DNA of 64,000 nt. It comes from Chaetoderma sp. LZ-2023a (lineage: Eukaryota; Mollusca; Caudofoveata; Chaetodermatida; Chaetodermatidae). Made by a program: the position numbers and the translations under genes. How positions within the stretch are numbered: the stretch's first letter is position 1; every line of letters begins with the position of its first letter. The notes beneath the pieces were generated by a model that saw nothing but the letters and a program-made list of their open reading frames with translations, had not been told where the DNA came from and ran no database searches. Where the stretch lies: positions 85,543,964 to 85,607,963 of the forward strand of contig CM067366.1 of NCBI GenBank assembly GCA_034401795.1, given 5' to 3'. Positions 3,451 to 58,687 of the stretch are shown here, piece after piece.

Positions 3451-3451
3451 A

Positions 3452-6613: not shown

Positions 6614-6996
6614 TCTTTTCACTTTTAGCTATGTCCCGTCCATCTCATTCTAAGCTCCACCCGCACCACGTTCGTGTTAGGATCGATCGATCTCTGAACT
6701 CCATTACTATCAATTTCCAGAAAACCACACAGGTGAGCTATTGAATATTTTGGAACTAATTTGACTGGGTGATGTTGCGGCCTATGGCAGCAACAGCGTC
6801 CAATCAAATTAGTTTCAAAATATTCAATAGCGTGTTTATTAAATAGTAGAGACATACAATTCGTGCAACGTGTCGGACTATTAAGAGTTTAAAGACGGGC
6901 CAAATAGAATCATTTATGACGTAATGATTATGACGTCATCCTGCACGCCGCTTAGCTGATTATGACGGCATATGATAGACGGATACTCTGGAAAGG
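6614..6996 (-). mobile_element. CRE-rich MITE copy D
   Basis: Reverse-orientation copy. TTTTAGCTATGTCCCGTCC is at left and CTCTGGAAAGG at right, with the central AACTAATTTGACTGG and AAATTAGTTTCAAAATATTC palindrome between. TGACGTCATCC lies in the right arm. Confidence 0.85.
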
Positions 6997-8354: not shown

Positions 8355-8740
8355 AGGATCGATTTCTAACTGTGACTCGGCCATTTCTCGATAATCTCCA
8401 CCCACGTTTTGTGCGTATTGGAATCGATTTATATCCTTTGATCCCGGAATTCTCGGAATCCCATTTGCAAGGTAAGAGAACAGTTAAGCTGTTGAATGTT
8501 TTGAAACTAATATGGCTGGGTGTTGTTGCTGCCTATGGCAGCAACAGCGCCTAGTCAAATTAATTTCAGAATATTCTACAAAATATTTTATTAAATCGCA
8601 AATCCATCAGACATATAATTCGTACACTTGACGAAGTTTCCGAAGTTCATAGCACACCTAGATACGTCATTCATCATATATTTTGATTGTGACGTCAGCC
8701 TGCATGTGTTAAGAGTGACAGATTGTATCCATCCATTGGG
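8355..8740 (-). mobile_element. CRE-rich MITE copy E
   Basis: Reverse-orientation copy with a rearranged left end. TCTCCACCCACGTTTTGTGC is followed by the palindrome TTTTGAAACTAATATGGCTG with CAAATTAATTTCAGAATATT, and the arm ends near ATCCATCCATTGGG. Confidence 0.75.
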
Positions 8741-9689
8741 TTTTCTGTTTTCGTTTAGTTGAAGGTGATGGGGTTACTGGGTCGCGCTGGAGACTAGTGG
8801 AGCGGCGTAAGGGAAGTAGTTTTTTTCGCATCAATGTACAGTAAAACGTGTACAGGGAGAAATTTCATAGCAAATTTATCACATGTACTTAGTAAGTTCT
8901 CAATGAGGATGCGATTTAGCGAGTTCCAAATAAGATCTTTCTAAACGAGCGTGATAAATTTGATATGAAATAATAATGAGTTTACAATTCTATTTAACGC
9001 ATAAGCTATTATTTCTCATTTTCACAGCATTTATATTATATTTTTACGTGCTGTCGGTCGGTCGGTCATTCAAATTTTTTACACTTCTGACCAAGCTGCC
9101 TAAGTCGATACACAACTATAGTACGTTCGCACTTATTCTAACCGCTGTTGTGCTTCGCAATTGAGAGGTCTGACCAATTGTTAGTGCGTATATTGACAAA
9201 CACGACATCTAAAGGGTGGGAGGAGCTTGGCTGGAGATGGATGTGGCATAGCTAAAATTGGATTCCTCCATTGAAGATAAAAAATGACACGTAATAGCGT
9301 AATGGATAGTATGCAATGTGATATAATCTCGCTTATGTCATAAAATTGATTCTAAATCAAACTAAAATTTAATTAAATATGACGTTTTAAAACCGTATTA
9401 CTTTTCGCTCACAAACCAGAAACGACAAATTCCTTATGATGCAAAAAAATTACGGAAATCTCTGCTGAATTTGTTTGAAACCTAATTCGACTGGGAGTTG
9501 TACAGGTTCTAAATACTCAGTATCTATCCTGGGCGGTTGTTTTGAAATCGAGAGCTCTGAAATTCCAATGGCAAAATGGTCAATGGAAGAACCTCGATAT
9601 GTCCAGATCTGACAACAGCATATCGCATATATAGATCCAGTATTTTTATTGATTCAAGATAACTTTATTCAAGGAAATGTAACAGAGGG
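8741..9689. other. non-coding, one MITE end fragment
   Basis: At about 9213-9268 the terminal MITE motif AGGAGCTTGGCTGGAGATGG with GGCATAGCTAAAATTGG is present without the rest. The remainder is AT-rich with no recognised content. Confidence 0.5.
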
Positions 9690-10258
9690 ACACATTTCTA
9701 GCTATGCCCTGCCCATTCCTAGCGATGTCCCGCCCATTCCCAGCGATGCCCCGCCCACTGCTAGCGATGCCCCGCCCATTTCTAGCTATTCCCCGTCCAT
9801 TTTCAGGTATGTCCGCGCATTACTGGCTATGTCCCGTCCATTTCTAGCTATGTCCGCCCATTTCTAGCTATGCCCATCTATTTCTAGTCACGCTCCGCCC
9901 GCGTTCTGCGCATGTTTGGATAGATTTATATACTTTTAGCCCTGAATTATCAGGATTACAATTTCAAGGTAACTACGCTGATAAGATGTTGGATATTTTG
10001 AAATTAATTTGACTGGGTGTTGTTGTTGCCTATGGCAGCAACGGTACCCAGGCAAATTAGTTTCAAAATGTTCAACAGAATGTGTATTAAATAGTAAATC
10101 CATCAAAGTCATACAATTCAGACTTGACGAACTATTCCAGCTTCTTGACGGAGTATTCTCTGTCAATTATTATTGTGACGTCAATTCCTCAACCTACATA
10201 TCACATGATTTATTAATACGTCATATACTTGAGTAACAGGCCGGATCCATCCAATAGC
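9690..10258 (-). mobile_element. MITE copy G with expanded terminal sub-repeat
   Basis: Reverse-orientation MITE. Its central palindrome is at about 9985-10080 and its CRE arm at about 10170-10258. Instead of the usual two terminal sub-repeats it has roughly ten degenerate units of about 20 bp (9695-9900), each a variant of CTAGCTATGCCCCGCCCATT. On the other strand this reads AATGGGCGGGGCATAGCTAG, the sequence from which the 16-32 kb minisatellite can be derived. Confidence 0.8.
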
Positions 10259-10335
10259 CGTCAATGAGACGAACACAGATGGCGCATTTCTTACTCTCGC
10301 CCCGTAAAGGGAGGAGGGTATTGCGATCGATCAGT

Positions 10336-11831: not shown

Positions 11832-12207
11832 TTCAGGGCCGTATTTAGATATGTGGGGGCCCTGGGGCAAAGAATGAGAGGGGGGTCTGGGTGTCCTCCC
11901 CCAGAATTTTTTTACACCTAGGTGCTCTGAGACGGCCAGAGAGTCTATTTTAGGGTGAATTATGGCGCTTTCTTTCGTTGTAAAATTATTTTATTTTGCA
12001 AATTTTTGTAATTAACATTGTTGCCGAACACCAAACAAGAATTGGCCCCCCCCCCCAAATATTAGACTAGAATTATAATGCATGATTAAGAGTTCTAAAC
12101 TAATAAAGTTTGTTTTAAATGTCCTATAACTTCCAAAAAAGTGCATAATTTTTTTTTTCATTTTTAAATTGTGGGGGCCCCTTGCTTGAGGGGGGCCCGG
12201 GGCTTGT
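11832..12207. mobile_element. possible hAT-like MITE, right end lost
   Basis: Starts CAGGGCCGTATTTAGATATG followed by GGGGGCCCTGGGGC and ends in GGGGGCCCC-rich sequence directly against the next MITE. CAGGGCCG starts with internal GGGGGCCC are common in hAT-type MITEs. No matching right terminus or duplication is visible. Confidence 0.35.
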
Positions 12208-12478
12208 AATCAGCTAAGCGGCGTGTAGAGTGACGTCATAATCATTACGTCATAAATTAGTCTATAGCTCTTATATAGTCCGACGCGTTGTACAAATTAT
12301 ATGTCTCTACTAGTTAATAGACATAGCAGCAACAGCACCCAGTTAAATTACTTTCAAAATATTCAACATCTTACCTGTATAGTTTTCTGGAAATTGATAG
12401 ATCGATCGATCCCAACATGAGCGACGTGTGGGTGGAGCTTAGATAGAGATGGGCGGGGCATAACTAAAAATGAAAAGG
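12208..12478 (+). mobile_element. CRE-rich MITE copy H, internally shortened
   Basis: The left arm with GTGACGTCATAATCATTACG leads straight to the right half AGCAACAGCACCCAGTTAAA, so the left half of the central palindrome is deleted. The GGGCGGGGCATAACTA end is present. Confidence 0.75.
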
Positions 12479-12482
12479 TTCA

Positions 12483-12836
12483 TTAAAGGTGCATATTCAC
12501 AGCAAAATTTCTGAAAATACAAATGTTTAAATTATACACTTCTAGAGGCTTAAACTGTGAGCATATATGTAATGAAATGAAATAAATTTTACATACGATG
12601 ATTCCATTCCATATAAATTAATATAATTTTTTAAGTTACGAAATTGAAATAGAGGCACGGGCCTCTATTTCAATTTCGCAACTTAAAAATTTCTATTAAT
12701 TTATATGGCATGGAATCATCATATGTTAAGATTTATTTCTGTTCCATTACACATAGGCACATACTTTAAGCTTATAAAAGTATGCAATTTTAACCACTTT
12801 ATTTTCAATCATTCTGGTGTGAACACGCACCTTTAA
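12483..12836. mobile_element. 346-bp palindromic MITE flanked by TTAA
   Basis: The element at 12487-12832 starts AGGTGCATATTCACA and ends with the imperfect complement TGTGAACACGCACCT, flanked by TTAA at 12483-12486 and 12833-12836. Both arms run about 170 bp to a centre near 12660, where GAAATAGAGGC meets GCCTCTATTTC. TTAA duplications are typical of piggyBac and Kolobok groups; nothing here decides between them. Confidence 0.85.
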
Positions 12837-14099: not shown

Positions 14100-14742
14100 C
14101 TGACAGTCATCTGATTTTCATGATGCATAGATTATCAAATCATGAACATAAACCTGGAGTTCTAATTGTGGAAAACGTGGATATAGAGGTCAATTTTGAT
14201 GTCTTTAGCATGAGTACATCCAAGGATCCAGCAATTCTAGTATTTTCGTCAGTTTCGAATGGCCGTTTTGGCGCCGTATTGGATGTCTGGCCAATAAAAA
14301 TTATCAAGCTGTACAAATATTTGCTTCCAATAGATTCCAAATGCTTGGTAACATGGACACAGAGCCCACATTTCTGGTCCTAGCCCCAAAGTTATAGTGA
14401 TATTCGTGATATCCAGGGGTCTGGGCAGCCATCTTGGATTTTTTTCACGTGTCACAGCGCAAAAGCTTACACACCCTTTGAAAATAATCATCTTCCACCA
14501 ATATGAACTCATACTAATCAACAGAAAACATTTATACATTTCCAACCTGTTAGATGATTTCCAGTGACAACACTACTAGCTGTGTATTAGCCTCGGGTGA
14601 ATAAATCTAAAACTCTTCTAGCTAGTGTCTGTGATAGCAAACGGATTGTAGCAACAGCAACTATCTTCACTGGGGCATTTGCCGTAACATGATAAGGGGT
14701 GTACTCATAATTTGGTCAACGTGTACTAAACAAGTCCAATGG
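14100..14742. other. non-coding, nothing recognised
   Basis: Overlapping opposite-strand open frames (14078-14383 plus, 14249-14545 minus) share no motif with any known family and are not called. Confidence 0.4.
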
Positions 14743-15060
14743 CCCTTTCCAGTTTATCTATCCACCATATGACGTTATAATCAACTGCGTGAAGTGTAGG
14801 ATGGCGTCATAATCAATGACGTCGTGAATGGCGTGGATAAGCACGTCAGGAACGCATAGTTGGCGACGGACTAAAGCATTGTTGTACGAATTGTATGTCT
14901 TTACTATTTAATAAACATGTTGTTAGATAGTTTTAAAAACTTCAATAGCTTATCTATATAGTTTTCTGAAAATTGATATTCCAGGGATCGATCGATTCCA
15001 GCACGAGCGAAGTGTGGGTGGAGCGTAGCTAGAAATGGGCGGGGCATAGCTAAAACTGAA
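14743..15060 (+). mobile_element. CRE-rich MITE copy J, centre deleted
   Basis: Starts CCTTTCCAGTTTATCTATCC and ends GGGCGGGGCATAGCTAAAAC. The CRE arm and terminal sub-repeats are kept. The central palindrome is reduced to a short AAAACTTCAATAGC junction. Confidence 0.8.
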
Positions 15061-15735
15061 TTTCTTAATTGTAAGAACCTAAACAGGATAGTGCGCTTTT
15101 CATTCTCCTATCTCGAAACATCCTAACAGAGATATTGAAATTAAACAAATTCGTCACACGCAACCCCCACCCCCGAATCGTAACATATAGACGAAGCGAC
15201 GTCTGGAGTACGACGGGTAGCACTATGGGGAGGTAATTATGCGTTTGATTCTAATGCGTTCTGTAATTTCCGCAAATGAGTTAGTTCTCTTGATTAGCGT
15301 AGAGAGCAAAGTTAGGCCTGTGTATTGTACGTTCCAGTCGAACGCACAATTATCGGCATAGCCAGCCAGAGCGGCGTACATTTATGGTAAACGCACTGGA
15401 TAACGGTTAGCCATAGTTCGCCAGTTGGGGAGAGACAGGTGTATATTTTATTACATTTTCAGACTCAATTCCTGACCTATATAGAACGAGATTACTGACA
15501 ACTGATCAGCACGTTATAGTGGACTCACAATGAACTGGCCTCATAAACTATAAGCACTATGCGTCAGGTGAGTTTGTTTAACTTTGTTAGCGTTTCTATG
15601 TTATATGTATGTTAACAATCACGATGGTCTCTCCGTGTTGGTTACTATCGCATTGACCCAGACGCGTTGTCCTCGTGCATATAGAGGATCTCAAACGAGT
15701 TAAATGTATGTTATCGCAAAATTATCAAGCGAGTA
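15061..15735. other. non-coding, nothing recognised
   Basis: No gene is supported. A strong splice-donor-like CAGGTGAGT occurs at 15565-15573 after a 3-codon open frame, but no matching exon can be seen. Confidence 0.4.
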
Positions 15736-16090
15736 TAATTTTATAAATATCATTTTGAATGACCTTTCTCTGGTAGATCATGTTTGATGAACGCCTCACA
15801 TGATGTCGAGCTTCCTCACGTGGGACAAGAACTCGCCAGAATGCAGTTATCCAATGTGAATACGCTACTTGAGCTATGAGGGATCAGATCTGTCACTCAA
15901 CTATATGACGTTTAATAAATGTCATTTTGAACGAATTTTTTGAGCGAGTCGGTCTTGTTTGATGATCGCATTGCATGAGGTACCCGTCACGGTTGACGAG
16001 AAATTATAATGCAATTAACACGTCGCATCAGAAGTGAATACGCTAATTATGTGATGATAATGGAGGGTTCTGATCTGCCACTCAAGCATT
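15736..16090 (+). repeat. two-copy tandem duplication of about 180 bp
   Basis: AAATATCATTTTGAATGACC with GTTTGATGAACGCCTCACAT (from about 15746) recurs as AAATGTCATTTTGAACGAA with GTTTGATGATCGCATTGCAT (from about 15917). GTGAATACGCTA and the GATCTGYCACTCAA phrase are also repeated at the same spacing. The copies are clearly diverged. Confidence 0.7.
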
Positions 16091-16265
16091 TGATGTCATA
16101 GTCAAATAAGTCACATATTAGCTGACATCACAATCACAATAACATAGACCCGCCATGATAATAGCAAAGACCGGCAGGAAAATGTACATTGTATGGTTTT
16201 CATGAACTTTCAAATTAATAAACATTTTGTCGATTATTTTTGGCATGAATCCCAAAGTGTGCGGA
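16072..16265 (+). mobile_element. MITE-like arm flanking the minisatellite on the left
   Basis: Holds a CRE-like stretch (GATGTCATAGTCAAATAAGT and TGACATCACAAT), an AATTAATAAACATTTTGTCG segment equivalent to the MITE interior, and AAAGTGTGCGGAGCTTAGC, equivalent to AAGTGTGGGTGGAGCTTAGC. It runs without a break into the minisatellite. Confidence 0.65.
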
Positions 16266-18189
16266 GCTTAGCTAGAAACGGGAGGGGGTAGCTTGAAATT
16301 GGAGTGTAGCTAGAAATGGGAAGGTGTAGCTAGAAATATGAGAGTGTAGCTAGAAATGGGACGGTATAGCTAGAATTGGAGTGTAGCTTGAAATGGGGGA
16401 GTGTAGCTAGAAATATGAGTGTAGCTAGAAATGGGATGGTGTAGCTAGAATTGGAGAGTGTGGCTAGAAATGGGAGATGTTTCGCTAGAAATGTGAGGGT
16501 TTAGCTTGAAATGGGAGGCTGTAGCTTGAATAGGATCGATGAAGCTAGAAATGGGAGGGATGTGGCTAGAAATGGGATGGATGAAGCTAGAAATGGGAGG
16601 GATGTGGCTAGAAATGGGAGGGATGAAGCTAGAAATGGGAGGGATGTGGCTAGAAATGGGAGGGATGAAGCTAGAAATGGGAGGGGTTTAGCTAGAAATG
16701 TGATGATTTAGCTAGAAATGGGAGGGTTTAGCTTGAAATGCGATGGATGAAGCTAGAAATGGGATGGATGAAGCTAGAAATGGGATTATGAAGCTAGAAA
16801 TGGGAGGGGTTTAGCTAGAAATGAGAGGGATTTAGCTAGAAATGGGAGGGTGTAGCTTGAAATGGGATGGATGAAGCTAGAAATGGGATGATGAAGCTAG
16901 AAATGGGAGGGATGTGGCTAGAAATTGGATGGATGAAGCTAGAAATGGGAGGGATGTGGCTAGAAATGGGATGGATGAAGCTAGAAATGGGAGGGATGTG
17001 GCTAGAAATGGGAGGGATGAAGCTAGAAATGGGAGGGATGAAGCTAGAAATAGGAGGGATGTTGGTCGAAAAGGGATGGATGAAGCTAGAAATGGGAGGG
17101 GTTTAGCTAGAAATGTGAGAGTTTTGCTAGAAATGTGAGGATTTAGCTTGAAATAGGAGGGTGTAGTTTGAAATGGGATGGATGAAGCTAGAAATGGGAG
17201 GGATGTGGCTAGAAATGGGATGGATGAAGCTAGAAATGGGAGGGATGTGGCTAGAAATAGGAGAGATGAAGCTAGAAATGGGATGGATGAAGCTAGAAAT
17301 GGGAGGGATGTAGGTAGAAATTGGATGGATGAAGCTAGAAATGGGATGGATGAAGCTAGAAATGGGGGGGGGGTGGGGTTTAGCTAGAAATGGGAGGGTT
17401 TGGCTTGAAATGGGAGGGCGTAGCTTGAAACGGGATGTATGAAGCTAGAAATGGGAGGGGTTTAGCTAGAAATGGGAGGGTTTAGCTTGAAATGGGAGGG
17501 TGTAGCTTGAAACGGGATGGATGAAGCTAGAAATGGGATGGATGAAGCTAGAAATGGGAGATGTGGGTAGAAATGGGATGGATGAGGCTAGAAATGGGAT
17601 GGATTTAGCTAGAAATTTGAGGATTTAGCTGGAAATGGGATGGATGTGGGTCGAAATGGGATGGATGAAGCTAGAAATGGGAGGGGTTTAGCTAGAAATG
17701 TGAGAGCTTAGCTTGAAATGGGAGGGTGTAACTTGAAATGGGATGGATGAAGCTAGAAATGGGATTGATGAAGCTAGAAATGAGATGGGTTTAGCTTGAA
17801 ATGGTAGAGTTTAGCTTGAAATGGGAGGGTGTAGCTTGAAATGGGAGGGTGTAGCTTGAATTGGGATGGATGAAGCTAGAAATGGGATGGATAAAGCTAG
17901 AAATGGGAGTTAGAAATGGGATGGATGAAGCTAGAAATGGGATGGATGAAGCTAGAAATGGGATGGATGAAGCTAGAAATAAGAGGTATTTAGCTAGAAA
18001 TGTAAGGGTTTAGCTTGAAATGGGAGGGTGTAGCTTGAAATGGGATGGATGAAGCTAGAAATGGGATGGATAAAGCTAGAAATGGGAGGGATGTGGGTAG
18101 AAATGGGATGGATGAAGCTAGAAATGGCATGGATGAAGCTAGAAATGGGAGGGGTTTAGCTTGAAATGGGAGGGTGTAGATTGAAATGG

Positions 18190-20660
18190 GAGGGATGTGG
18201 CTAGAAATGGGAGGGATGTGGCTAGAAATGGGAGGGATGGACTTAGAAATGGGAGGGATGTAGGTAGAAATGGGATGTATGAAGCTAGAAATGGGAGGGG
18301 TTTAACTAGAAATGTGAGGGGTTTAGCTGGAAATGGGATGGATGAGGGTAGAAATAGGATGGATGAAGCAGAAATGGGAGGGATGAAGCCAGTAATGTGA
18401 TGGATGAAGCTAGAAATGGGAGGGATGTAGGTAGATATGGGAGGTATGAAGCTGGAAATAGGAGGGTGTTGCTAGAAATGGGACGGTATTGATAGAAATG
18501 GGAGTGTGTAGCTTGAAATGGGATGGATGATGCTAGAAATGGGAGGGATGAAGCTAAAAATGGGATGGATGAAGCTGGTAATGTGATGGATGAAGCTAGA
18601 AATGGGAGGGATGTAGGTAGATATGGGATGTATGAAGCTGGAAATAGGAGGGTGTTGCTAGAAATGGGAGGGTATTGATAGAAATGGGAGTGTGTAGCTT
18701 GAAATGGGATGGATGATGCTAGAAATGGGAGGGATGTGGCTAGAAATGGGAGGGATGAAGCTAAAAATGGGATGGATGAAGCTAGAAATGGGAGGGATGT
18801 ATGTATAAATGGGATGGATGAAGCTAGAAATGGGATGGATGAAGCTAGAAATGGGACGGGTTTAGCTAAAAATGTGACGGTTTAGCTTGAAATGGGAGGG
18901 TGTAGCTAGAAATGAGATTGATGAAGCTGGAAATGGGATGGCGGAAGCTAGAAATGGGAGGGATGTGGCTAGAAATGGGAGAGATGTAGGTAGAAATGGG
19001 AGGGATGTGCTAGAAATGGGAGGGATGTGCCTAGAAATGGGAGGGATGTGGCTAGAAATGGGAGGGATGTAGGTGAAATGGGAGGGATGTGGCTAGAAAT
19101 GGAAGGGGTTTAGCTGGAAATGGGAGGGTGTAGCTGGAAATGAGAGGGATGTGGCTAGAAATGGGAGGGATGTGGCTAGAAATGGGAGGGATGAAGCTAG
19201 AAATGGAATAGATGAAACTAGAAATGGGAGGGATGTAGGTAGAATTGGGATGGATGAAGCTAGAAATGGGAGGGGTTTAGCTAGAAATGTGAGGATTTAG
19301 CTAGAAATGTGAGTGTTTAGCTTGAAATGGGGTGGATGAAGCTAGTAATGGGATGGATGAAGCTAGAAATGGGAGGGATGTAGGTAGATATGGGAGGGAT
19401 GTGGCTAGAAATGGGATGGATTAAGCTAGAAATGGGAGGGATGTAGGTAGAAATGGGATGGATGAAGCTAGAAATTGGAGGGGTTTGGCTTGAAATGGGA
19501 GGGTGTAGCTGAAAATGACAGGGATGTTGCTAGAAATGGGAGGGGTGTGGCTAGAAATGGGAGGGATGAAGCTAGAAATGGAATGGATGAAGCTAGCAAA
19601 GGGAGGGATGTAGGTAGAAATGGGATGGATGAAGCTAGAAATGAGAGGGATTTAGCTAGAAACGTAAGTGTTTAGCTTGAAATGGGAGGGTGTAGCTTGA
19701 AATGGGATGGATGAAGCTAGAAATGGGATGGATGAAGCTAGAAATGGGATGGATGAAGCTAGAAATGGGATGTATGAAGCTAGAAATGGGATGGATGAAG
19801 CTAGAAATAAGAGGTATTTATCTAGAAATGTAAGGGTTTAGCTTGAAATGGGAGGGTGTGGCTTGAAATGGGATGGATGAAGCTAGAAATGGGATGGATA
19901 AAGCTAGAAATGGGAGGGATGTGGGTAGAAATGGGATGGATGAAGCTAGAAATGGCATGGATGAAGCTAGAAATGGGAGGGGTTTAGCATGAAATGGGAG
20001 GGATGTGGCTAGAAATGGGAGGGATGTGGCTAGAAATGGGAGGGATGGACTTAGAAATGGGAGGGATGTAGGTAGAAATGGGATGTATGAAGCTAGAAAT
20101 GGGAGGGGTTTAGCTAGAAATGTGAGGGGTTTAGCTGGAAATGGGATGGATGAGGGTAGAAATAGGATGGATGAAGCAGAAATGGGAGGGATGAAGCTAG
20201 TAATGGGATGGATGAAGCTAGAAATGGGAGGGATGTAGGTAGATATGGGAGGTATGAAGCTGGAAATAGGAGGGTGTTGCTAGAAATGGGAGGGTATTGA
20301 TAGAAATGGGAGTGTGTAGCTTGAAATGGGATGGATGATGCTAGAAATGGGAGGGATGTGGCTAGAAATGGGAGGGATGAAGCTAAAAATGGGATGGATG
20401 AAGCTAGAAATGGGAGGGATGTATGTAGAAATGGGATGGATGAAGCTAGAAATGGGATGGATGAAGCTAGAAATGGGACGGGTTTAGCTAAAAATGTGAC
20501 GGTTTAGCTTGAAATGGGAGGGTGTAGCTAGAAATGAGATTGATGAAGCTGGAAATGGGATGGCGGAAGCTAGAAATGGGAGGGATGTGGCTAGAAATGG
20601 GAGGAATGTGGCTAGAAATGGGAGAGATGTAGGTAGAAATGGGAGGGATGTAGCTAGAAA
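18190..20660 (+). repeat. higher-order duplication inside the minisatellite, 1808-bp offset
   Basis: The segment starting at 18197 recurs nearly unchanged from 20005, including rare variants such as GGATGGACTTAGAAATGGGA. From 18887 against 20509 the offset is 1622, because the first copy carries an extra internal duplication of about 186 bp. Confidence 0.75.
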
Positions 20661-23600
20661 TGGAATAGATGAAACTAGAAATGGGAGGGATGTAGGTAGA
20701 ATTGGGATGGATGAAGCTAGAAATGGGAGGGGTTTAGCTAGAAATGTGAGGATTTAGCTAGAAATGTGAGTGTTTAGCTTGAAATGGGATGGATGAAGCT
20801 AGTAATGGGATGGATGAAGCTAGAAATGGGAGGGATGTAGGTAGATATGGGAGGGATGTGGCTAGAAATGGGATGGATTAAGCTAGAAATGGGAGGGATG
20901 TAGGTAGAAATGGGATGGATGAAGCTAGAAATGGGAGGATTTAGCTAGAAATGTGAGGGTTTAGCTTGAAATTGGATGGATGAAGCTAGAAATGGGATGG
21001 ATGAAGCTAGAACTGGGAGGTATATGGCTAGAAATGATAGGGATGAAGCTAGTAATGGGATGGATGAAGCTAGAAATGGGAGGGATGTGGCTAGAAATGG
21101 GAGGGGTTTAGCTTGAAATGGGAGGGTGTAGCTGGAAATGAGAGGGATGTGGCTAGAAATGGGAGGGATGTGGCTAGAAATGGGAGGGATGAAGCTAGAA
21201 ATGGAATGGATGAAACTAGAAATGGGAGGGATGTAGGTAGAATTGGGATGGATGAAGCTAGAAATGGGAGGGGTTTAGCTAGAAATGGGAGGATTTAGCT
21301 AGAAATGTGAGTGTTTAGCTTGATGAAGCTAGAAATGGGAGGGATGTAGGTAGAAATGGGATGGATGAAGCTAGAAATTGGAGGGGTTTGGCTTGAAATG
21401 GGAGGGTGTAGCTGAAAATGACAGTGATGTTGCTAGAAATGGGAGGGATGTGGCTAGAAATGGGAGGGATGAAGCTAGAAATGGAATGGATGAAGCTAGC
21501 AAAGGGAGGGATGTAGGTAGAATTGGTATGGATGAAGCTAGAAATGGGAGGGGGTTAGCTAGAAATGGGAGGATTTAGCTAGAAATGGGAGGGTTTAGCT
21601 TGAAATTGGATGGATGAAGCTAGAAATGGGATGGATGAAGCTAGAACTGGGAGGTATATGGCTAGAAATGAGAGGGATGAAGCTAGTAATGGGATGGATG
21701 AAGATAGAAATGGGAGGGATGTGGCTAGAAATGGGAGGGGTTTAGCTTGAAATGGGAGGGTGTAGCTGGAAATGAGAGGGATGTGGCTAGAAATGGGAGG
21801 GATGTGGCTAGAAATGGGAGGGATGAAGCTAGAAATGGAATGGATGAAACTAGAAATGGGAGGGATGTAGGTAGAATTGGGATGGATGAAGCTAGAAATG
21901 GGAGGGGTTTAGCTAGAAATGGGAGGATTTAGCTAGAAATGTGAGTGTTTAGCTTGAAATGGGATGGATGAAGCTAGAAATGGGATGTATGGATCTAGAA
22001 ATGGGAGGGGTTTAGCTAGAAATGGGAGGATTTAGCTTGAAATGGGAGGGTGTAGCTTGAAACGGGATGGATGAAGCTAGAAATTGGAGGGATGTGGGTA
22101 GAAATGGGATGGATGAAGCTAGAAATGAGATGGATTTAGCTAGAGATGTGAGGGTTTAGCTGGAAATGGGATGGATGAAGCTAGAAATGGGATGTATGGA
22201 TCTAGAAATGGGAGGGGTTTAGCTAGAAATGGGAGGATTTAGCTTAAAATGGGAGGGTGTAGCTTGAAATGGGAGGGATGTAGGTAGATATGGGAGGGAT
22301 GAAGATAGAAATGGGATGGATGAAGCTAGAAATAAGAGGTATTTAGCTAGAAATGTAAGGGTTTAGCTTGAAATGGGAGGGTGTAGCTTGAAATGGGATA
22401 GATGAAGCTAGAATTGGAATGGATGAAGCTAGAAATGGGAGGGATGTGGGTAGAAATGGGATGGATGAAGCTAGAAATGGCATGGATGAAGCTAGAAATG
22501 GGAGGGGTTTAGCTTAAAATGGGAGGGTGTAGATTGCAATGGGAGGGGTGTGGCTAGAAATGGGAGGGATGTGGTTAGAAATGGGATGGATGGACTTAGA
22601 AATGGGAGGGATGTAGGTAGAAATGGGATGGATGAAGCTAGAAATGGGAGGGGTTTAGCTAGAAATGTAAGGGATAGCTAGAAATGTGAGGGTTTAGCTG
22701 GAAATGGGATGGATGAAGCTAGAAATGGGAGGGATGTAGGTAGAAATGGGAGGGATGTGGCTAGAAATGGGAGGGATGTGGCTAGAAATGGGAGGGATGT
22801 TGGTAGAAACGGAGGGATGAAGCTAGAAATGGGATGAATGAAGCTAGAAATAGGAGGGATGTGGCTAGAAATGGGAGGGATGTAGGTAGAAATGGGATGG
22901 ATGAAGCTAGAAATGGAGCGGTTTAGCTAGAAATGTGAGTTTAGCTAGAAATGTGAGGGTTTAGCTTGAAATGGGAGGGTGTAGTTTGGAATGGGATGTA
23001 TGAAGCTAGAAATGGGATGGATGAAGCTAGAAATGGGAGGGATGTGGCTAGAAATGGGAGGGATCAAGCTAGAAATGGGATGGATGAGACTAGAAATGGG
23101 AGGGATGTAGGTAGAAATGGGATGGATGAAGCTAGAAATGGGATGGATGACGCTAGAAATGGGAGGGTGTTAGCTTGAAATGGGAGGGTGTAGTTTGAAA
23201 TGAGAGGGATGTGGCTAGAAATAGGAGAGATGTGGCTAGAAATGGGAGCGATGTAGCTAGAAATGGGAGGGTTGAAGCTAGAAATGGGATGGATGAAGCT
23301 AGAAATGGGATGGATGAAGCTAGAAATGGGAGGAATGTAGGTAGAAATGGGATAGATGAAGCTAGAAATGGGAGGGGTTTAGCTAGAAATGTGAGGATTT
23401 GGTTAGAAATGTGAGGATTTAGCTTGAAATGGGATGGATGAAGCTAGAAATGGGAGGGATGAAGCTATAAATGGGAGGGATGTGGCTAGAAATGGGAGGG
23501 ATGAAGCTAGAAATGGGATGTATGGAGCTAGAAATGGGAGGGATGTAGGTAGAAATGGGATGGATGAAGCTAGAAATGGGAGGGGCTAGAAATGGGAGGG

Positions 23601-26600
23601 TTTAGCTTGAAATGGGAGGGTGTAGCTTGAAATGGAATGGATGAAGCTAGAAATGGGAGGGGTTTAACTAGAAATGGGATGGATGTTGCTAGAAATGGGA
23701 GGGATGTAGCTTGAAATGGGAGGGATGTAGCTAGAAATGGGATGGATGAAGCTAGAAATGGGATGGATGTGGCTAGAAATGGGAGGGACGTGGCTAGAAA
23801 TGCGAGGGATGTAGGTAGAAATGGGAGGGATGTGGCTAGAAATGGGAGGGATGTAGCTAGGGATATAGGTAGAAATGGGAGGGATGTGGCTAGAAATGGG
23901 AGGATGTAGCTAGAAATGGGAGGGATGTCGGTAGAAATGGGATGGTTGAAGCTAGAAATGGGAGGGGTTTAGCTAGAAATGTGATGATTTCGCTAGAAAT
24001 GTAAGGGTTTAGTTTGAAATGGGATGGATGAAGCTAGAAATGGGATGGATGAAGCTAGAAATGGGATGGATGTGGCTAAAATGGGATGGATGAAGCTAGA
24101 AATGGGAGGGATGTGGCTAGAAATGGGATGGATGAAGCTAGAAATGGGGGTGATGTGGCTAGAAATGGGAGGGATGAAGCTAGAAATGGGATGGATGAAT
24201 CTAGAAATGGGAGGGATGTTAGTCGAAATGGGGTTGATGAATCTAGAAATGGGAGGGGTTTAGCTAGAAATGTGAGAGTTTTGCTAGAAATGTGAGGGTT
24301 TAGCTTGAAATAGGAGGGTGTAGTTTGAAATGGGATGGATGAAACTAGAAATGGGAGGGATGTGGCTAGAAATGGGATGGACGAAGCTAGCAATGGGAGG
24401 GATGTGGCTAGAAATGGGAGAGATGAAGCTAGAAATGGGATGGATGAAGCTAGAGATGGAGGGATGTAGGTAGAAATTGGATGGATGAAGCTGGAAATGG
24501 GATGGATGAAGCTAGAAATGGGAGGGGTTTAGCTAGAAATGGGAGGGTTTAGCTTGAGATGGGAGGGTGTAGCTTGAAACGGGATGGATGTGGGTAGAAA
24601 TGGGATGGATGAAGCTAGAAATGGGATGGATGAAGCTAGAAATGGGAGGGGTTTAGCTTGAAATGGGAGGGTGTAGCTGGAAATGAGACGGATGTGGCGA
24701 GAAATGGGAGGGATGTGGCTAGAAATGGGAGGGATGAAGCTAGAAATGGAATGGATGAAGCTAGAAAAGGGAGTGATGTAGGTAGAATTGGGATGGATGA
24801 AGCTAGAAATGGGAGGGGATTAGCTAGAAATGTGAGGATTTATCTAGAAATGTGAGGGTTTAGCTTGAAATAGGATGAAGCTAGAAAAGGGAGGGATGAT
24901 TCTAGAAATGGGATGTATGAAGCTAGAAATGGGAGGGGTTTAGCTAGAAATGGGAGGGTGTAGCTTGAAACGGGATGGGTGAAGTTAGAAATGGGATGGA
25001 TGAAGCTAGATATGGGAGGGATGTGGGTAGAAATGGGATGGATGAAGCTAGAAATGGGATGGATTTAGCTAGAAATGTGAGGGTTTAGCTAGAAATGGGA
25101 TGGATGAAGCTAGAAATGGGAGGGATATGGCTAGAAATGGGAGTGATGAAGCTAGTAATGGGATGGATGAAGCTAGAAATGGGAGGGATGTAGGTAGATA
25201 TGGGAGTGATGTGTCTAGAAATGGGATGGATGAAGCTAGAAATGGGAGGGATGTAGGTAGAAATGGGATGGATGAATCTAGAAATTGGAGGGGTTTGGCT
25301 TGAAATGGGAGGGTGTAGTTGAAAATGACAGGGATGTTGCTAGAAATGGGAGGGATGTGGCTAGAAATAGGAGGGTTTGGAGCTAGAAATGGAATGGATG
25401 AAGCTAGCAAAGGGAGGGCTGTAGGTAGAATTGGGATGGATGAAGCTAGAAATGGGAGGGGGTTAGCTAGAAATGGGAGGATTTAGCTAGAAATGTGAGG
25501 GTTTAGCTTGAAATTGGATGGATGAAGCTAGAAATGGGATGGATGAAGCTAGAAATGGGAGGGATGTGGCTAGAGATGGGAGAGATGAAGCCAGAAATGG
25601 GATGTATGAAGCTAGAAATGGGAGGGGTTTAGCTAGAAATGGGAGGGTTTAGCTTGAAATGGGAGGGTGTAGCTTGAAACGGGATGGATGAAGCTAGAAA
25701 TGGGATGGATGAAGCTAGAAATGGGAGATGTGGGTAGAAATGGGATGGATGAGGCTAGAAATGGGATGGATTTAGCTAGAAATTTGAGGATTTAGCTGGA
25801 AATGGGATGGATGTGGGTCGAAATGGGATGGATGAAGCTAGAAATGGGAGGGGTTTAGCTAGAAATGTGAGAGCTTAGCTTGAAATGGGAGGGTGTAGCT
25901 AGAAATGAGATTGATGAAGCTGGAAATGGGATGGCGGAAGCTAGAAATGGGAGGGATGAAGCTAGAAATGGGAGGGATGTGGCTAGAAATGGGAGAGATG
26001 TAGGTAGAAATGGGAGGGATGTGGCTAGAAATGGGAGGGATGAAGCTAGAAATGGAATGGATGAAACTAGAAATGGGAGGGATGTAGGTAGAATTGGGAT
26101 GGATGAAGCTAGAAATGGGAGGGGTTTAGCTAGAAATGTGAGGATTTAGCTAGAAATGTGAGTGTTTAGCTTGAAATGGGATGGATGAAGCTAGTAATGG
26201 GATGGATGAAGCTAGAAATGGGAGGGATGTAGGTAGATATGGGAGGGATGTGGCTAGAAATGGGATGGATTAAGCTAGAAATGGGAGGGATGTAGGTAGA
26301 AATGGGATGGATGAAGCTAGAACTGGGAGGTATATGGCTAGAAATGATAGGGATGAAGCTAGTAATGGGATGGATCAAGCTAGAAATGGGAGGGATGTGG
26401 CTAGAAATGGGAGGGGTTTAGCTTGAAATGGGAGGGTGTAGCTGGAAATGAGAGTGATGTGGCTAGAAATGGGAGGGATGTGGCTAGAAATGGGAGGGAT
26501 GAAGCTAGAAATGGAATGGATGAAACTAGAAATGGGAGGGATGTAGGTAGAATTGGGATGGATGAAGCTAGAAATGGGAGGGGTTTAGCTAGAAATGGGA

Positions 26601-27359
26601 GGATTTAGCTAGAAATGTGAGTGTTTAGCTTGAAATGGGATGGATGAAGCTAGAAATGGGATGTATGGATCTAGAAATGGGAGGGGTTTAGCTAGAAATG
26701 GGAGGATTTAGCTTGAAATGGGAGGGTGTAGCTTGAAACGGGATGGATGAAGCTAGAAATTGGAGGGATGTGGGTAGAAATGGGATGGATGAAGCTAGAA
26801 ATGGGATGGATTTAGCTAGAGATGTGAGGGTTTAGCTGGAAATGGGATGGATGAAGCTAGAAATGGGATGGATGAAGCTAGAACTGGGAGGTATATGGCT
26901 AGAAATGAGAGGGATGACGCTAGTAATGGGATGGATGAAGCTAGAAATGGGAGGGATGTAGGTAGATATGGGAGGGATGAAGATAGAAATGGGATGGATG
27001 AAGCTAGAAATAAGAGGTATTTAGCTAGAAATGTAAGGGTTTAGCTTGAAATGGGAGGGTGTAGCTTGAAATGGGATAGATGAAGCTAGAAATGGAATGG
27101 ATGAAGCTAGAAATGGGAGGGATGTGGGTAGAAATGGGATGGATGAAGCTAGAAATGGCATGGATGAAGCTAGAAAAGGGAGGGGTTTAGCTTAAAATGG
27201 GAGGGTGTAGATTGCAATGGGAGGGGTGTGGCTAGAAATGGGATAGATGGACTTAGAAATGGGAGGGATGTAGGTAGAAATGGGATGGATGAAGCTAGAA
27301 ATGGGAGGGGTTTAGCTAGAAATGTGAGGGATAGCTAGAAATGTGAGGGTTTAGCTGGA

Positions 27360-30300
27360 AATGGGATGGATGAAGCTAGAAATGGGAGGGATATGGCTAG
27401 AAATGGGAGGGATGAATCTAGAAATGGGAGGGATGTAGGTAGATATGGAAGGGATGAAGCTAGAAATGTGAGGATGTTGCTAGAAATGGGAGGGTATTGA
27501 TAGAAATGGGAGGGGTGTAGCTTGAAATGGGAGGGTGTAGCTTGAAATGGGAGGGTGTAGCTAGAAATGAGAGGGATGAAGCTAGAAATGGGATGGATGA
27601 AGCTAGAAATCGGAGGGATGAAGATAGAAATGGGAGGGATGTGGCTAGAAATGGGAGGGATGTAGGGAGGGATGTAGGTAGAAATGGGAGGGATGTGGCT
27701 AGAAATGGGAGGGATGTGGCTAGAAATGGGAGGGATGTAGGTAGAAACGGAGGGATGAAGCTAGAAATGGGATGAATGAAGCTAGAAATGGGAGGGATGT
27801 GGCTAGAAATGGGAGGGATGTAGCTAGAAATGGGATGGATGAAGCTAGAAATGGAGCGGTTTAGCTAGAAATGTGAGTTTAGCTAGAAATGTGAGGGTTT
27901 AGCTTGAAATGGGAGGGTGTAGTTTGGAATGGGATGTATGAAGCTAGAAATGGGATGGATGAAGCTAGAAATGGGAGGGATGTGGCTAGAAATGGGAGGG
28001 ATCAAGCTAGAAATGGGATGGATGAGACTAGAAATGGGAGGGATGTAGGTAGAAATGGGATGGATGAAGCTAGAAATGGGAGGATGTTAGCTTGAAATGG
28101 GAGGGTGTAGTTTGAAATGAGAGGGATGTGGCTAGAAATGGGAGAGATGTGGCTAGAAATGGGAGGGATGTAGCTAGAAATGGGAGGGTTGAAGCTAGAA
28201 ATGGGATGGATGAAGCTAGAAATGGGATGGATGAAGCTAGAAATGGGACGAATGTAGGTAGAAATGGGACAGATGAAGCTAGAAATGGGAGGAGTTTAGC
28301 TAGAAATGTGAGGATTTGGCTAGAAATGTGAGGGTTTAGCTTGAAATGGGATGGATGAAGCTAGAAATGGGATGGATGAAGCTAGAAATGGGAGGGATGT
28401 GGCTAGAAATGGGAGGGATGAAGCTAGAATTGGGATATATGGAGCTAGAAATGGGAGGGATGTAGGTAGAAATGGGATGGATGAAGCTAGAAATGGGAGG
28501 GGTTTAGCTAGAAATGGGAGGGTTTAGCTTGAAATGGGAGGGTGTAGCTTGAAATGGAATGGATGAAGCTAGAAATGGGAGGGGTTTAACTAGAAATGGG
28601 AGGGATGTTGCTAGAAATGGGAGGGATGTAGCTAGAAATGGGAGGGATGTAGCTAGAAATGGGTGGGATGTGCCTAGAAATTGGAGGGATGTTGCTAGAA
28701 ATGGGACGGTGTTGCTAGAAATGGGAAGGATGTAGCTAGAAATGGGAGAGATGTATCTAGAAATTGGAGGGATGTAGCTAGAAAAAGGGAGGGATGTAGC
28801 TACAAATGGGATGGATGAAGCTAGAAATCGGAGGGATGAAGATAGAAATGGGAGGGATGTGGCTAGAAATAGGAGGGATGTGGCTAGAAATGGGAGGGAT
28901 GTAGGTAGAAATGTAAGGGTTTAGCTTGAAATGGGAGGGTGTAGCTTGAAATGGGATAGATGAAGCTAGAAATGGGAGGGATATGGCTAGAAATGGGAGG
29001 GATGAATCTAGAAATGGGAGGGATGTAGGTAGATATGGAAGGGATGAAGCTAGAAATGTGAGGATGTTGCTAGAAATGGGAGGGTATTGATAGAAATGGG
29101 AGGGGTGTAGCTTGAAATGGGAGGGTGTAGCTTGAAATGGGAGGGTGTAGCTAGAAATGAGAGGGATGAAGCTAGAAATGGGATGGATGAAGCTAGAAAT
29201 CGGAGGGATGAAGATAGAAATGGGAGGGATGTGGCTAGAAATAGGAGGGATGTGGCTAGAAATGGGAGGGATGTAGGTAGAAATGGGAGGGATGTGGCTA
29301 GAAATGGGAGGGATGTAGGTAGAAACGGAGGGATGAAGCTAGAAATGGGATGAATGAAGCTAGAAATGGGAGGGATGTGGCTAGAAATGGGAGGGATGTA
29401 GGTAGAAATGGGATGGATGAAGCTAGAAATGGAGCGGTTTAGCTAGAAATGTGAGTTTAGCTAGAAATGTGAGGGTTTAGCTTGAAATGGGAGGGTGTAG
29501 TTTGGAATGGGATGTATGAAGCTAGAAATGGGATGGATGAAGCTAGAAATGGGAGGGATGTGGCTAGAAATGGGAGGGATCAAGCTAGAAATGGGATGGA
29601 TGAGACTAGAAATGGGAGGGATGTAGGTAGAAATGGGATGGATGAAGCTAGAAATGGGAGGGTGTTAGCTTGAAATGGGAGGGTGTAGTTTGAAATGAGA
29701 GGGATGTGGCTAGAAATGGGAGAGATGTGGCTAGAAATGGGAGGGATGTAGCTAGAAATGGGAGGGTTGAAGCTAGAAATGGGATGGATGAAGCTAGAAA
29801 TGGGATGGATGAAGCTAGAAATGGGACGAATGTAGGTAGAAATGGGACAGATGAAGCTAGAAATGGGAGGAGTTTAGCTAGAAATGTGAGGATTTGGCTA
29901 GAAATGTGAGGGTTTAGCTTGAAATGGGATGGATGAAGCTAGAAATGGGATGGATGAAGCTAGAAATGGGAGGGATGTGGCTAGAAATGGGAGGGATGAA
30001 GCTAGAATTGGGATATATGGAGCTAGAAATGGGAGGGATGTAGGTAGAAATGGGATGGATGAAGCTAGAAATGGGAGGGGTTTAGCTAGAAATGGGAGGG
30101 TTTAGCTTGAAATGGGAGGGTGTAGCTTGAAATGGAATGGATGAAGCTAGAAATGGGAGGGGTTTAACTAGAAATGGGAGGGATGTTGCTAGAAATGGGA
30201 GGGATGTAGCTAGAAATGGGAGGGATGTAGCTAGAAATGGGTGGGATGTGCCTAGAAATTGGAGGGATGTTGCTAGAAATGGGACGTTGTTGCTAGAAAT

Positions 30301-30520
30301 GGGAAGGATGTAGCTAGAAATGGGAGAGATGTATCTAGAAATGGGAGGGATGTAGGTAGAAACGGAGGGATGAAGCTACAAATGTGATGGATGAAGCTAG
30401 AAATCGGAGGGATGAAGATAGAAATGGGAGGGATGTGGCTAGAAATAGGAGGGATGTGGCTAGAAATGGGAGGGATGTAGGTAGAAATGGGAGGGATGTG
30501 GCTAGAAATGGGAGGGATGT
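27360..30520 (+). repeat. higher-order duplication inside the minisatellite, 1578-bp offset
   Basis: 27904-28331 and 29482-29909 are almost identical unit for unit, as are the rare GGGTGGGATGTGCCTAG variants near 28660 and 30240. A third, partly matching block follows from 30384 (offset about 1183 for 29706 against 30889). An older related block lies at 22966-23414. Confidence 0.8.
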
Positions 30521-31750
30521 GGCTAGAAATGGGAGGGATGTAGGTAGAAACGGAGGGATGAAGCTAGAAATGGGATGGATGAAGCTAGAAATGGAGCGGT
30601 TTAGCTAGAAATGTGAGTTTAGCTAGAAATGGGAGGGTTTAGCTTGAAATGGGAGGGTGTAGTTTGGAATGGGATGTATGAAGCTAGAAATGGGATGGGT
30701 GAAGCTAGAAATGGGAGGACTGTGGCTAGAAATGGGAGGGATCAAGCTAGAAATGGGATGGATGAGACTAGAAATGGGAGGGATGTAGGTAGAAATGGGA
30801 TGGATGAAGCTAGAAATGGGATGGATGACGCTAGAAATGGGAGGGTGTTAGCTTGAAATGGGAGGGTGTAGTTTGAAATGAGAGGGATGTGGCTAGAAAT
30901 GGGAGAGATGTGGCTAGAAATGGGAGGGATGTAGCTAGAAATGGGAGGGTTAAAGCTAGAAATGGGATGGATGAAGCTAGAAATGGGATGGATGAAGCTA
31001 GAAATGGGAGGAATGTAGGTAGAAATGGGACAGATGAAGCTAGAAATCGGATGGGTTTAGCTAGAAATGTAAGAATTTGGCTAGAAATGTGAGGGTTTAG
31101 CTTGAAATGGGATGGATGAAGCTAGAAATGGGATGGATGAAGCTAGAAATGGGAGGGATGTGGCTAGAAATGGGAGGGATGAAGCTAGAAATGGGATGTA
31201 TGGAGCTAGAAATGGGAGGGATGTAGGTAGAAATGGGATGGATGAAGCTAGAAATGGGAGGGGTTTAGCTAGAAATGGGAGGGTTTAGCTTGAAATGGGA
31301 GGGTGTAGCTTGAAATGGGATGGATGAAGCTAGAAATGGGAGGGGTTTAACTAGAAATGGGACGGTGTTGCTAGAAATGGGAAGGATGTAGCTAGAAATG
31401 GGTGGGATGTGGCTAGAAATTGGAGGGACGTGGCTAGAAATGGGAGGGATGTAGGTAGAAATGGGAGGGATGTGGCTAGAAATGGGAGGGATGTAGGTAG
31501 AAATGGGAGGGATGTGGCTAGAAATGGGAGGATGTAGCTAGAAATGGGAGGGATGTAGCTAGGGATGTAGGTAGAAATGGGATGGATGTGGCTAGAAATG
31601 GGAGGGATGTAGCTAGAAATGGGAGGGATGTAGCTAGAAATGGGAGGGATGTGGATAGAAATCGGAGGGATGTAGGTAGAAATGGAGGGATGTTGCTAGA
31701 AATGGGAGGGATTAAGCTAGAAATGGGAGGGATGTATCCAGAAATGGATT

Positions 31751-32022
31751 TATTGATATAGACTGAATGAGGAGGTGCCAGATAAATAGCCAAATATCTG
31801 GAGTCACGGTAGCTACACCAGCTCCCAGGCAAATTGATTTCAAAATATTCAGTAGAATGTTTATATAAATTGTAAATCTATCAAACACATACAAATCGTA
31901 CAATCGATAAACTTTTCGAGCTTCATGACTGAGAGCTCTAGCTCTACGCCATTTTGACTGTGACGTCAGCAAATTCGTGATGTATTTGATCATGACGTCA
32001 GAGTGGCATGTCGGATTCCTCT
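31751..32022 (-). mobile_element. MITE-like arm flanking the minisatellite on the right
   Basis: Contains CAAATTGATTTCAAAATATT, AGTAGAATGTTTATATAAAT, ACATACAAATCGTACAATCG and GTGACGTCAGCAAATTCGTG. This is the second half of the central palindrome plus the CRE arm, in the same order as copy G. The array therefore ends in MITE sequence as well. Confidence 0.7.
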
Positions 32023-33600: not shown

Positions 33601-33795
33601 TATTCCCTTACCCAGTGGAGATGCCATGGGCAGCAACAGCACTCAGTTAAATTAAGTTTCAAAATATTCAACAGCTTACCTGTATAGTCACGTTGATATT
33701 TGATTTCTGTGATTTCAGAATTCGGTTGATCTAATCACGGGCAAAGCGTGGGCGAAGGTTAGATAGAAATGGGCGGGGCATAGGTAGAAATGGAT
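33601..33795 (+). mobile_element. MITE copy L, right half only
   Basis: Starts within the central palindrome (GCCATGGGCAGCAACAGCAC) and ends in GGGCGGGGCATAGGTAGAAA. The CRE arm is absent. Confidence 0.75.
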
Positions 33796-33851
33796 CCCAC
33801 TAATAACTTGTACGTTAATCGAAATATCGAAAAACAATGCTTCCCGAGAGT

Positions 33852-34247
33852 CCTTTCCACTTCATCCATCCATCATATGCCGTCATAATTGACGTGTAGA
33901 ATGACATCATAATCAATGACGTCATTGTGACGTCGTGAATGACGTAGATAAGTACGTCACGAACGCATAATTTGAAGACGGACTATGCGTTGTTGTACGA
34001 ATTGGATGTCTTTATTATTTGATACATATTTTGTTGAATATTTTGAAACTAATCTGACTGGGCGCTGTTGCTGCCATAGGCAGCAACAGTGCCTAGTCAA
34101 ATTAGTTTCAATCTATTTAACAGCTTATCTGTACAGCTTTCTGGAAATTGATAGTTAGGGAGTTCAGGGCTCTATCGATTTCAACACGAGCGAAGTGTCG
34201 GTGGAGCTTAGCTAGAGGTGGGCGGGCCTTAGCAAAATCTGGAACGG
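33852..34247 (+). mobile_element. CRE-rich MITE copy M, full length
   Basis: Starts CCTTTCCACTTCATCCATCC and ends AAATCTGGAACGG. Five TGACGT or ACGTCA motifs lie at 33885-33970. The central hairpin is intact: GGCGCTGTTGCTGCCATAGG pairs with CAGCAACAGTGCCTAGTCA. Confidence 0.85.
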
Positions 34248-34389
34248 TCCATTGCATAGACAGCAATAGCATTATCAACATCTGCTATCGGAGTAAGAAT
34301 GCATGCTACTAACAATTAGCACTACTACTTAGCCGATTATTCTCCTGATCAAATATGTCAGCTAATTAAGTCATAGTCATAGTTTTTAG

Positions 34390-35060
34390 TTTTTGCGTTT
34401 AGCAAAACTTCTCTGCTTATACTTCAGGATCAATTAAACCTATTGCAACTAAACTTGGCTATGTGGTTTCATATGCCGCTAGGAAGTAGCAAGATGATAC
34501 TGAGGGCACAAGGTCAAAGATCAAGGTCACTGTGACCTTGATACAAAACTGATTTCTACAATGTTAAGTTTTTGCGCTTAGCAAAACTTCTTGGCTGATC
34601 TTTCAGTATTGGTTAATCCTATTGCAACTAAGCTTGATTACATTGTTAACTATAATGTTAGGAAGCAGCATGCTGACACTGGTCACAACGTCAAAGGTCA
34701 AGGTCATTCTGACCTCTATCAAACTTTGTTACTTTTTAATGTTAAGTTTTTAGGCGTAGCAAATCATATCATTTTATATTTCGGGATTGCTTAACCCTAA
34801 TGGAACACAACTTGGTTACATGGTTGCTTATGCCAAGAGGATACGGGATGGTGACATGGAGGTCACCAGGTAAAAGGTCAAGGCCATTCTACTATTGCTA
34901 TTTGACCTCTGTTTTTTTAACCTTAAGTTTTTCCATTCAGCAAATCATTTATATTTCAGGATTGATTAATCCTATTGGAACTAAACTTAAATAGATGGTT
35001 GCCTATAATGTTCGGAAAGCAGCATGGTAGCACGGAGGTCACACAGTCAAAGGTCAATGG
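34390..35060 (+). repeat. diverged tandem repeat of about 175-185 bp with nuclear-receptor-like palindromes
   Basis: Four monomers share the order GTTTTTGCGCTTAGCAAA, a TTCAGGATTGRTTAATCCTA phrase, GGAACTAAACTTG, GGTTGCCTATAATG and AAAGGTCAAGGTCA. The first holds AGGTCACTGTGACCT (34524-34538) and the second AGGTCATTCTGACCT (34701-34715), both perfect palindromes with a 3-bp spacer. Monomers 3 and 4 are degenerate. Related monomers occur at 52540-53430. Confidence 0.8.
34524..34538. promoter_or_regulatory. AGGTCAnnnTGACCT palindrome
   Basis: Matches the consensus oestrogen-response-element arrangement (IR3 of AGGTCA). It is also overlapped by TCAAGGTCA, the ERR/SF-1 extended half-site, on both strands. 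The sequence match is exact; function in this genome is unproven. Confidence 0.5.
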
Positions 35061-58683: not shown

Positions 58684-58687
58684 ATAT

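Follow-up and report, generated by a model that had tools for sequence, protein, structure and literature searches.

Known Arrays inside Short DNA Transposons

The growth of tandem arrays from repeats inside miniature inverted-repeat transposable elements (MITEs) and their relatives has been described for Tetris, miDNA4 and Xstir and has also been reviewed (PMC4079207, PMC9659126, PMC6947457, PMC12628747, PMC5139131). The stretch analyzed here (the window) comprises 64,000 nucleotides of the mollusc Chaetoderma sp. LZ-2023a, C8:85543964–85607963 in a 2.44-Gb genome, and contains a 15.5-kb minisatellite with a 21-bp unit. In all likelihood this array arose by in-place expansion of a repeat that lies subterminally at the 3′ end of one MITE-like element, a member of a subfamily designated B. 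The reading is adopted because the period, orientation and place of the array match a motif pair native to the element, the host 5′ half and the start of its 3′ part are found on the left, and other copies carry arrays at the same end.

Tetris/TIR-220 of Drosophila virilis resembles this case in that tandem repeats of the terminal region of a non-autonomous DNA transposon are described as having grown into kilobase arrays inside the element, and in that two copies (allelic in Tetris) differ in repeat number, for which unequal crossing-over was proposed (PMC4079207). It differs in its unit of about 220 bp, present in at most 66 copies, in its foldback structure and in the location of the repeats within terminal inverted repeats (PMC4079207), whereas here a 21-bp unit is repeated about 750 times at the 3′ end of a short element. 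The miDNA4 MITE of Xenopus tropicalis carries, according to its descriptions, either one monomer or a variable array grown inside the element; however, it is a Tc1/mariner MITE for which capture of a tandem repeat has been proposed (PMC12628747, PMC9659126), while the seed considered here is a 21-bp duplication that the element carries natively at its end. For Xstir, also from Xenopus, MITE, tandem array and composite forms are reported to coexist, as in the present genome, but its sequence is different, and the stem-and-loop model between neighbours put forward for it is not needed here (PMC12628747). Bivalve Pearl elements with BIV160 or Cg170-like repeats are likewise modular MITEs with internal satellite-like repeats, though with internal arrays given as up to six monomers (PMC5139131).

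The principle is known. What distinguishes this case is that one short element holds so many units, that the period is accounted for by a 21-bp seed already present in the element, and that within one genome this end has expanded repeatedly and to graded extents. The series from 2 to about 750 units is unusually full, and its unit is shorter than the repeat units of Pearl elements. No such family was met among the titles and abstract openings of the literature searched, for which the sequence itself was not used as a query.

The 21-bp Array and Its Flanks

Tandem Repeats Finder reports a period of 21, with multiples of 21, at window positions 16269–31747 (plus strand, consensus GCTAGAAATGGGAGGGATGTA). 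Wrap-around decomposition gives 747 units, mostly of 21 or 20 bases, with starts from 16265 to 31735. When a slightly wider stretch is decomposed, 750 units of 243 distinct types are obtained, spaced by 21 in 551 cases and by 20 in 169. The GC skew lies between 0.78 and 0.81 in nearly all 1-kb steps within the array. Measured per block of 50 units, divergence is highest in the first block, with a mean distance to the nearest other unit of 0.70, and falls to about 0.1 in several interior blocks.

G-quadruplexes were considered as drivers of array growth and found to be a weak candidate: the mean G4Hunter score in the array is 0.83, values of at least 1.2 occur in 8.7% of its 25-base windows versus 1.1% in the rest of the stretch, and the G-quadruplex pattern (loops up to 7) has 6 matches across the 15.5 kb. 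Long open frames on the minus strand of the array are expected from a 21-base period and were set aside as a coding signal.

The left boundary is formed by the 5′ half of a subfamily B element, including the 5′ terminal repeat region, at 16057–16240 (plus strand). This segment is matched by nhmmer with a profile of three B copies (model positions 21–206, E 2.4e-20) and with a profile of ten copies (model 17–204, E 4.1e-16). The profiles were taken from an alignment that also held both array flanks, the flank rows being excluded. The 5′ half is followed at 16241–16268 by a junction left after loss of the MITE centre and then by the beginning of the MITE 3′ subterminal part, which continues into unit 1, as placed by profile alignment; the match of 16254–16286 to model 352–386 (E 0.06) is weak alone, yet it is in order and adjacent to the 5′ half. 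The same arrangement of 5′ half, 3′ start and unit 1 is repeated in a second copy of the locus, discussed below. The original prediction, which placed a MITE-like arm at this boundary and proposed expansion inside one MITE to about 740 units, agrees with these results: the 5′ half on the left, a 3′ start running into unit 1, a period equal to the native spacing and 747–750 units. Upstream, overlapping the host 5′ half, pairwise alignment shows a diverged direct duplication of about 180 bp (15739–16096, plus strand), both copies of which include the start of a B 5′ end; a weak model match lies at 15878–15918.

The right boundary departs from what had been predicted, namely the other half of the same MITE. 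The segment 31812–32025 is a 5′ half of a B copy on the minus strand (nhmmer, model 23–236, E 1.6e-32). Each flank is a 5′ half and the two point in opposite directions; for this reason the idea of a single MITE interrupted by the array and completed on its right side was rejected. Identity between the inverted half and the left half is 73%, inside the 68–81% range of other comparisons, and because of this the inverted half is read as a separate copy rather than the missing half of the array host. The host 3′ end is represented at best by a short, weak tail at about 31737–31756 (plus strand, AGAAATGGAT..TTATTG), found by tail scoring and profile matches. On the plus strand, 31715–31756 aligns with model 370–411 (E 0.25; E 0.06 with the B profile), a match that includes the last unit. 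An identical kind of right tail is carried by the second copy of the locus. Alignment of the flanks to a MITE profile, proposed with the original prediction as a check, thereby recovers the left flank and 3′ start in order and leaves a weak right end.

The inverted half could also be taken as the partner required if the array had arisen between two inverted copies by a stem-and-loop or foldback route. It stands about 55 bp past the array tail in both copies of the locus, and such a route between neighbouring elements has been proposed for Xstir (PMC12628747). On the other side, the resemblance of the two halves does not exceed that of other comparisons, on which ground they were rejected as a foldback pair, and elsewhere in the genome arrays are found on single elements, where nearby inverted partners were not checked for systematically. 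Foldback-type inverted repeats carrying tandem units were not found either: the units stand at the 3′ end of a single copy, and the right inverted half matches the 5′ half of the model only. An origin of this kind appears improbable.

The Native Motif Pair and the Change of the Unit

Without an array the element measures about 300–425 bp. About a dozen copies of its two subfamilies, A and B, as well as fragments, were found in the window by self-comparison and alignment. Terminal inverted repeats are present: in the aligned ends, subfamily A reads CAATGGACCTTTCCAGTT ... AACTGGAAAGGTCCATTG, an 18-bp pair, and subfamily B ends near ...AGCTAGAAATGGATCCCTCTATTG. The pair varies among copies and is perfect in none of the 13 copies with anchored ends. 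Size, copy number and inverted termini are what suggest the label MITE. Helitrons and Helentrons (HINE) insert between T and T without duplication and have a 3′ hairpin; in the 13 copies no target-site duplication was found, but no T/T flank pattern was seen by eye, and inverted termini are present. The MITE unit has no match among viral contigs, a set that may omit records of the window's own genome.

The element centre is a long palindrome, which in the copy at 34 kb folds as DNA at −31.6 kcal/mol (z −9.1). It is gone from the window host, while the host of a large array on C4 (see below) has a continuous match across that part of the model. The presence or absence of the palindrome therefore does not decide growth.

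At the 3′ end, all 11 unexpanded window copies that were tested carry the motif TAGCTAGAAATGG twice, at a distance of exactly 21 bp. Up to 5 mismatches in 13 were allowed for the second motif copy, a closeness reached by about 1% of 20,000 random 13-mers; neither the array host nor the expanded copy at 9.7 kb was included. Since the native motif copies are 21 bp apart, the period of the array is built into the element. The earlier proposal that the array unit equals a terminal motif present about twice per MITE copy is borne out by this pair. An intermediate stage is seen in a B copy on the minus strand (9677–10262), where a small array of about 9–10 units (9693–9875) occupies the same position.

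These data also bear on the possibility that the MITE captured or invaded a satellite that already existed; capture of a tandem repeat has been proposed for miDNA4 of Xenopus (PMC12628747). The motif pair in all 11 unexpanded copies speaks against it. Moreover, at 20 of 20 genomic loci chosen by two perfect units alone, part of the MITE body lies directly upstream on the same strand; in all 16 distinct places that these loci represent, the array is attached to the body at the same model position and strand. The 20 loci are the first listed of 7521 pattern matches (4065 + 3456, at most 3 mismatches; control 0). Capture or invasion of an older satellite is given little credence.

The unit has changed with respect to the element. 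The observed/expected CpG ratio is 0.20 in the array (58 CpG) and 0.81 in the remaining window. Position 13 of the unit is A in 738 of the 747 units, a C-to-A change which removes the CpG of the MITE unit; the dinucleotide replacing CG is AG or AT in 677 of 747 units and TG in 3. Loss of CpG had been predicted and did occur, but CpG decay as its cause is rejected at this main site by the same counts. Because the transversion is carried by nearly every unit, it was present in a founder unit or homogenised early. In four other arrays compared, T occupies this site in 30–81% of units, the outcome expected of CpG decay.

A Second Copy of the Locus 166 kb Downstream

The locus recurs 166 kb downstream in the same orientation. 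The second copy follows the window in the same order from position 1 to about 58 kb, with insertions in either copy, and the flanks adjoining the arrays differ at 1.5–1.6% of aligned bases. The second array (85732784–85741996) has about 445 units against about 747 in the window. Judged by eye, the two arrays are colinear at their edges, where some 250 bp at the left end and some 100 bp at the right end are in register, and scrambled in between. Base frequencies per unit position are nearly identical in the two arrays, for which reason a long array probably existed before the two copies of the locus parted.

Exact repeats of at least 200 bp cover 31% of the window array and 0% of the second. 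The longest block repeat within the window array is 1065 bp long, 99.7% identical and offset by 1578 bp. Judging from these repeats, later block duplications would have enlarged the window array. The small array at 9.7 kb is 183 bp long in both copies of the locus.

A same-orientation duplicate 166 kb away with flanks about 1.5% different is also what an unpurged alternate haplotype would look like, and an artefact of assembly, with the array length inflated or the locus falsely duplicated, has to be weighed. Against it, the longest near-identical block contains scattered differences, the interiors of the two arrays differ, one insertion is found in one copy only, and long arrays exist at other loci too. 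An artefact of either type is considered highly improbable, the least probable of the explanations weighed.

Expansions of the Same End Elsewhere in the Genome

Genome-wide searches for further copies returned 1949, 2161 and 5463 candidates for three queries, of which 40 were scored each time. A further large array is at C4:109973685–109987170, where a B copy (model 18–429, E 1.5e-35) carries about 465 units in two parts with an interruption of about 3.5 kb. This far C4 array ends in a terminal-repeat tail with a score of 21, the random 99th percentile being 16. It lies about 0.4 Mb from the contig end, in a region (C4:109962001–110002000) with other minisatellites whose units include 17, 20, 28, 30 and 40 bp.

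Further array-bearing copies were found at C4:102280374 (78 units), C4:102285394 (at least 108 units), C9:22481602 (41 units), C7:30900933–30902612 (about 80 units), C2:16623526 (78 units) and C1:40942682 (38 units). Another route of expansion is represented at C8:11792412 (positions 1124–1547 of sequence L008), where the 3′ end of a subfamily A element is present as nine copies of a 47-bp unit with 97% matches.

Of 44 copies not picked for arrays, most have about 2 units; six have 4 or more (5.7, 8.0, 9.9, 19.7, 20.0 and at least 64.4 units, the value of 20.0 being the 47-bp array, 9.0 units of 47 bp, counted as 20 units of 21 bp). The set comprises profile matches extending from model position 310 or less to 365 or more in the window, in sequences L003–L008 and in 16 of the 18 sequences L031–L048; L037 and L047 were left out as apparent duplicates of L036 and L046, and the window host is absent because its 5′ half stops short of model 365. 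Subfamily labels in this set are rough. The query that yielded L003–L008 contained the motif pair; that for L031–L048 held about 60 array bases, and the matches listed, except the two C8 copies, aligned within its positions 1–184. Birth of a satellite from a transposon end had been regarded in the original prediction as rarely seen with both flanks preserved; at this MITE end expansion is recurrent in the genome, in 6 of 44 copies at the level of 4 or more units and in others with about 38 to 465.

Among the arrays compared, each has nearly private units. Unit types of the window array are matched by 0 of 188 units at C4:102M, 0 of 52 in C7, 0 of 80 in C2 and 4.1% of 467 in the far C4 array. 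The last figure is the main hint that these two arrays may have some history in common, as would be the case if the incoming element or its parent already had an expanded array, which transposition spread and local homogenisation later altered. In favour of such a pre-expanded element, 18 of the 467 far C4 units are identical to the commonest window unit, and 194 of 196 genome-wide matches to GCTAGAAATGGGAGGGATG are found in the window, the second C8 copy and the far C4 array. Unit position 17 is commonly A in both the window and the far C4 arrays (72% and 89%), and by eye also in some units of the 9.7-kb array. However, the window and far C4 arrays have no 40-mers in common, the three other arrays have no unit types in common with the window, and most sampled copies have about 2 units. 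Arrival of the element in an already expanded state is considered unlikely, though less so than the other alternatives to expansion in place.

Strength of the Case and Proposed Course of Growth

Several observations weigh against expansion in place. The case rests on a single genome assembly, and the 18 identical far C4 units mean that independence of the arrays may be incomplete. The host is without its central third (about model 205–351, including the palindrome). Of the 21 positions of the unit, 4 are not the same in the array and in the MITE. Divergence does not simply peak at the two edges: the left edge is the most diverged, but blocks at 23.5–25.5 kb (0.46–0.52) exceed the last block (0.34). 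Target-site duplications were not found, and 13 anchored copies, an old and small sample, show no clear excess of 2–9-bp flanking direct repeats. The right tail is the weakest part. Against five real tails it is equalled by 0.4–0.9% of random stretches, a figure partly earned by the unit motif common to the tails, and against the B tail it scores 12, below the random 95th percentile of 14. Among the 15 array-end tails scored, 10 are at or above the random 95th percentile, 4 of them above the 99th, and the other 5, including those of the window and C7, remain below the 95th; the scoring is lenient, as the scored stretch includes the last ten array bases and the random control was made without them.

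In the course of events preferred here, growth of the array within its host element, the native motif pair would permit slippage or unequal exchange in steps of 21 bp. With few units present, larger misaligned exchanges or conversions could add or remove blocks of up to about 1 kb and homogenise the interior, leading to hundreds of units. The element centre would have been lost by a separate deletion, and the unit with C-to-A at position 13 would be a founder or an early homogenised one. The block duplications, the colinear edges with scrambled interiors, the length difference between the two copies of the locus and the privacy of units are consistent with such a molecular step, which we infer from sequence comparison. 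No function is claimed for the array; runaway growth at the end of a transposon is the best reading of it.

A more general proposal is that the MITE 3′ end is a sequence-encoded satellite nursery, in which the built-in 21-bp duplication drives repeated independent expansion, from 2 to about 750 units, each array acquiring its own homogenised unit and some of them lying inside elements with recognisable ends. Even the first expansion steps may have been favoured, should the motif serve as a subterminal binding site for the transposase. The chances of the nursery proposal being right or wrong are judged to be evenly balanced. Satellites are usually seen once their origin has been erased. In this genome a single mobile family shows the seed and small, middle-sized and 747-unit arrays at the same end, and at least one flank has survived. 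The rate, step size and founder effect of satellite birth become measurable by comparing many such starts in this genome and in its relatives.

Other Features of the Window

Further MITE copies of the window are not expanded. Unexpanded B copies lie at 3442–3849 and 8345–8744 (both minus strand), and a B-type 3′ half at 33619–33802 (plus) has the native motif pair at its 21-bp spacing. Unexpanded copies of subfamily A are located at 4621–4988 (plus), 5475–5859 (plus), 6593–7004 (minus), 12187–12489 (plus, 5′ end damaged), 14728–15083 (plus, the A copy nearest the array) and 53859–54229 (plus). The A copy at 33843–34267 (plus) has its central palindrome intact and is not expanded (2.9 units). 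A solo 3′ end with two motif copies is present at 9197–9276 (plus). Beside a MITE copy, at 34380–35060, repeated stretches with motifs like AAAGGTCAAGGTCA were noticed by eye.

The two copies of the locus also differ outside the array. A 50-bp tandem repeat at 53496–53705 has 4.2 copies in the window and 17.2 in the second copy. A 3.6-kb insertion at 44323–47931, with a 6-bp duplication (CTACAT) on its flanks, is missing from the second copy of the locus, where the empty site is seen; the insertion is probably a mobile element. It holds an intronless open frame of 878 amino acids (44803–47439) with no Pfam match at E 0.01, whose product shares 34% identity over 274 columns with a frame at 1675–2349. 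In the surrounding region (41000–50100), matches resembling reverse transcriptase (RVT_1, E 1e-4) and integrase (phage-integrase SAM-like, E 0.007) are weak and fall short of the curated cut-offs; the region is perhaps a DIRS-type retroelement.

A LINE-like region in several frames on the minus strand (57155–59920) contains a clear reverse transcriptase domain (RVT_1, E 4e-27, 57916–58488). At 54712–56202, a galactosyltransferase domain (PF01762, E 7e-29) is encoded in a single open frame.

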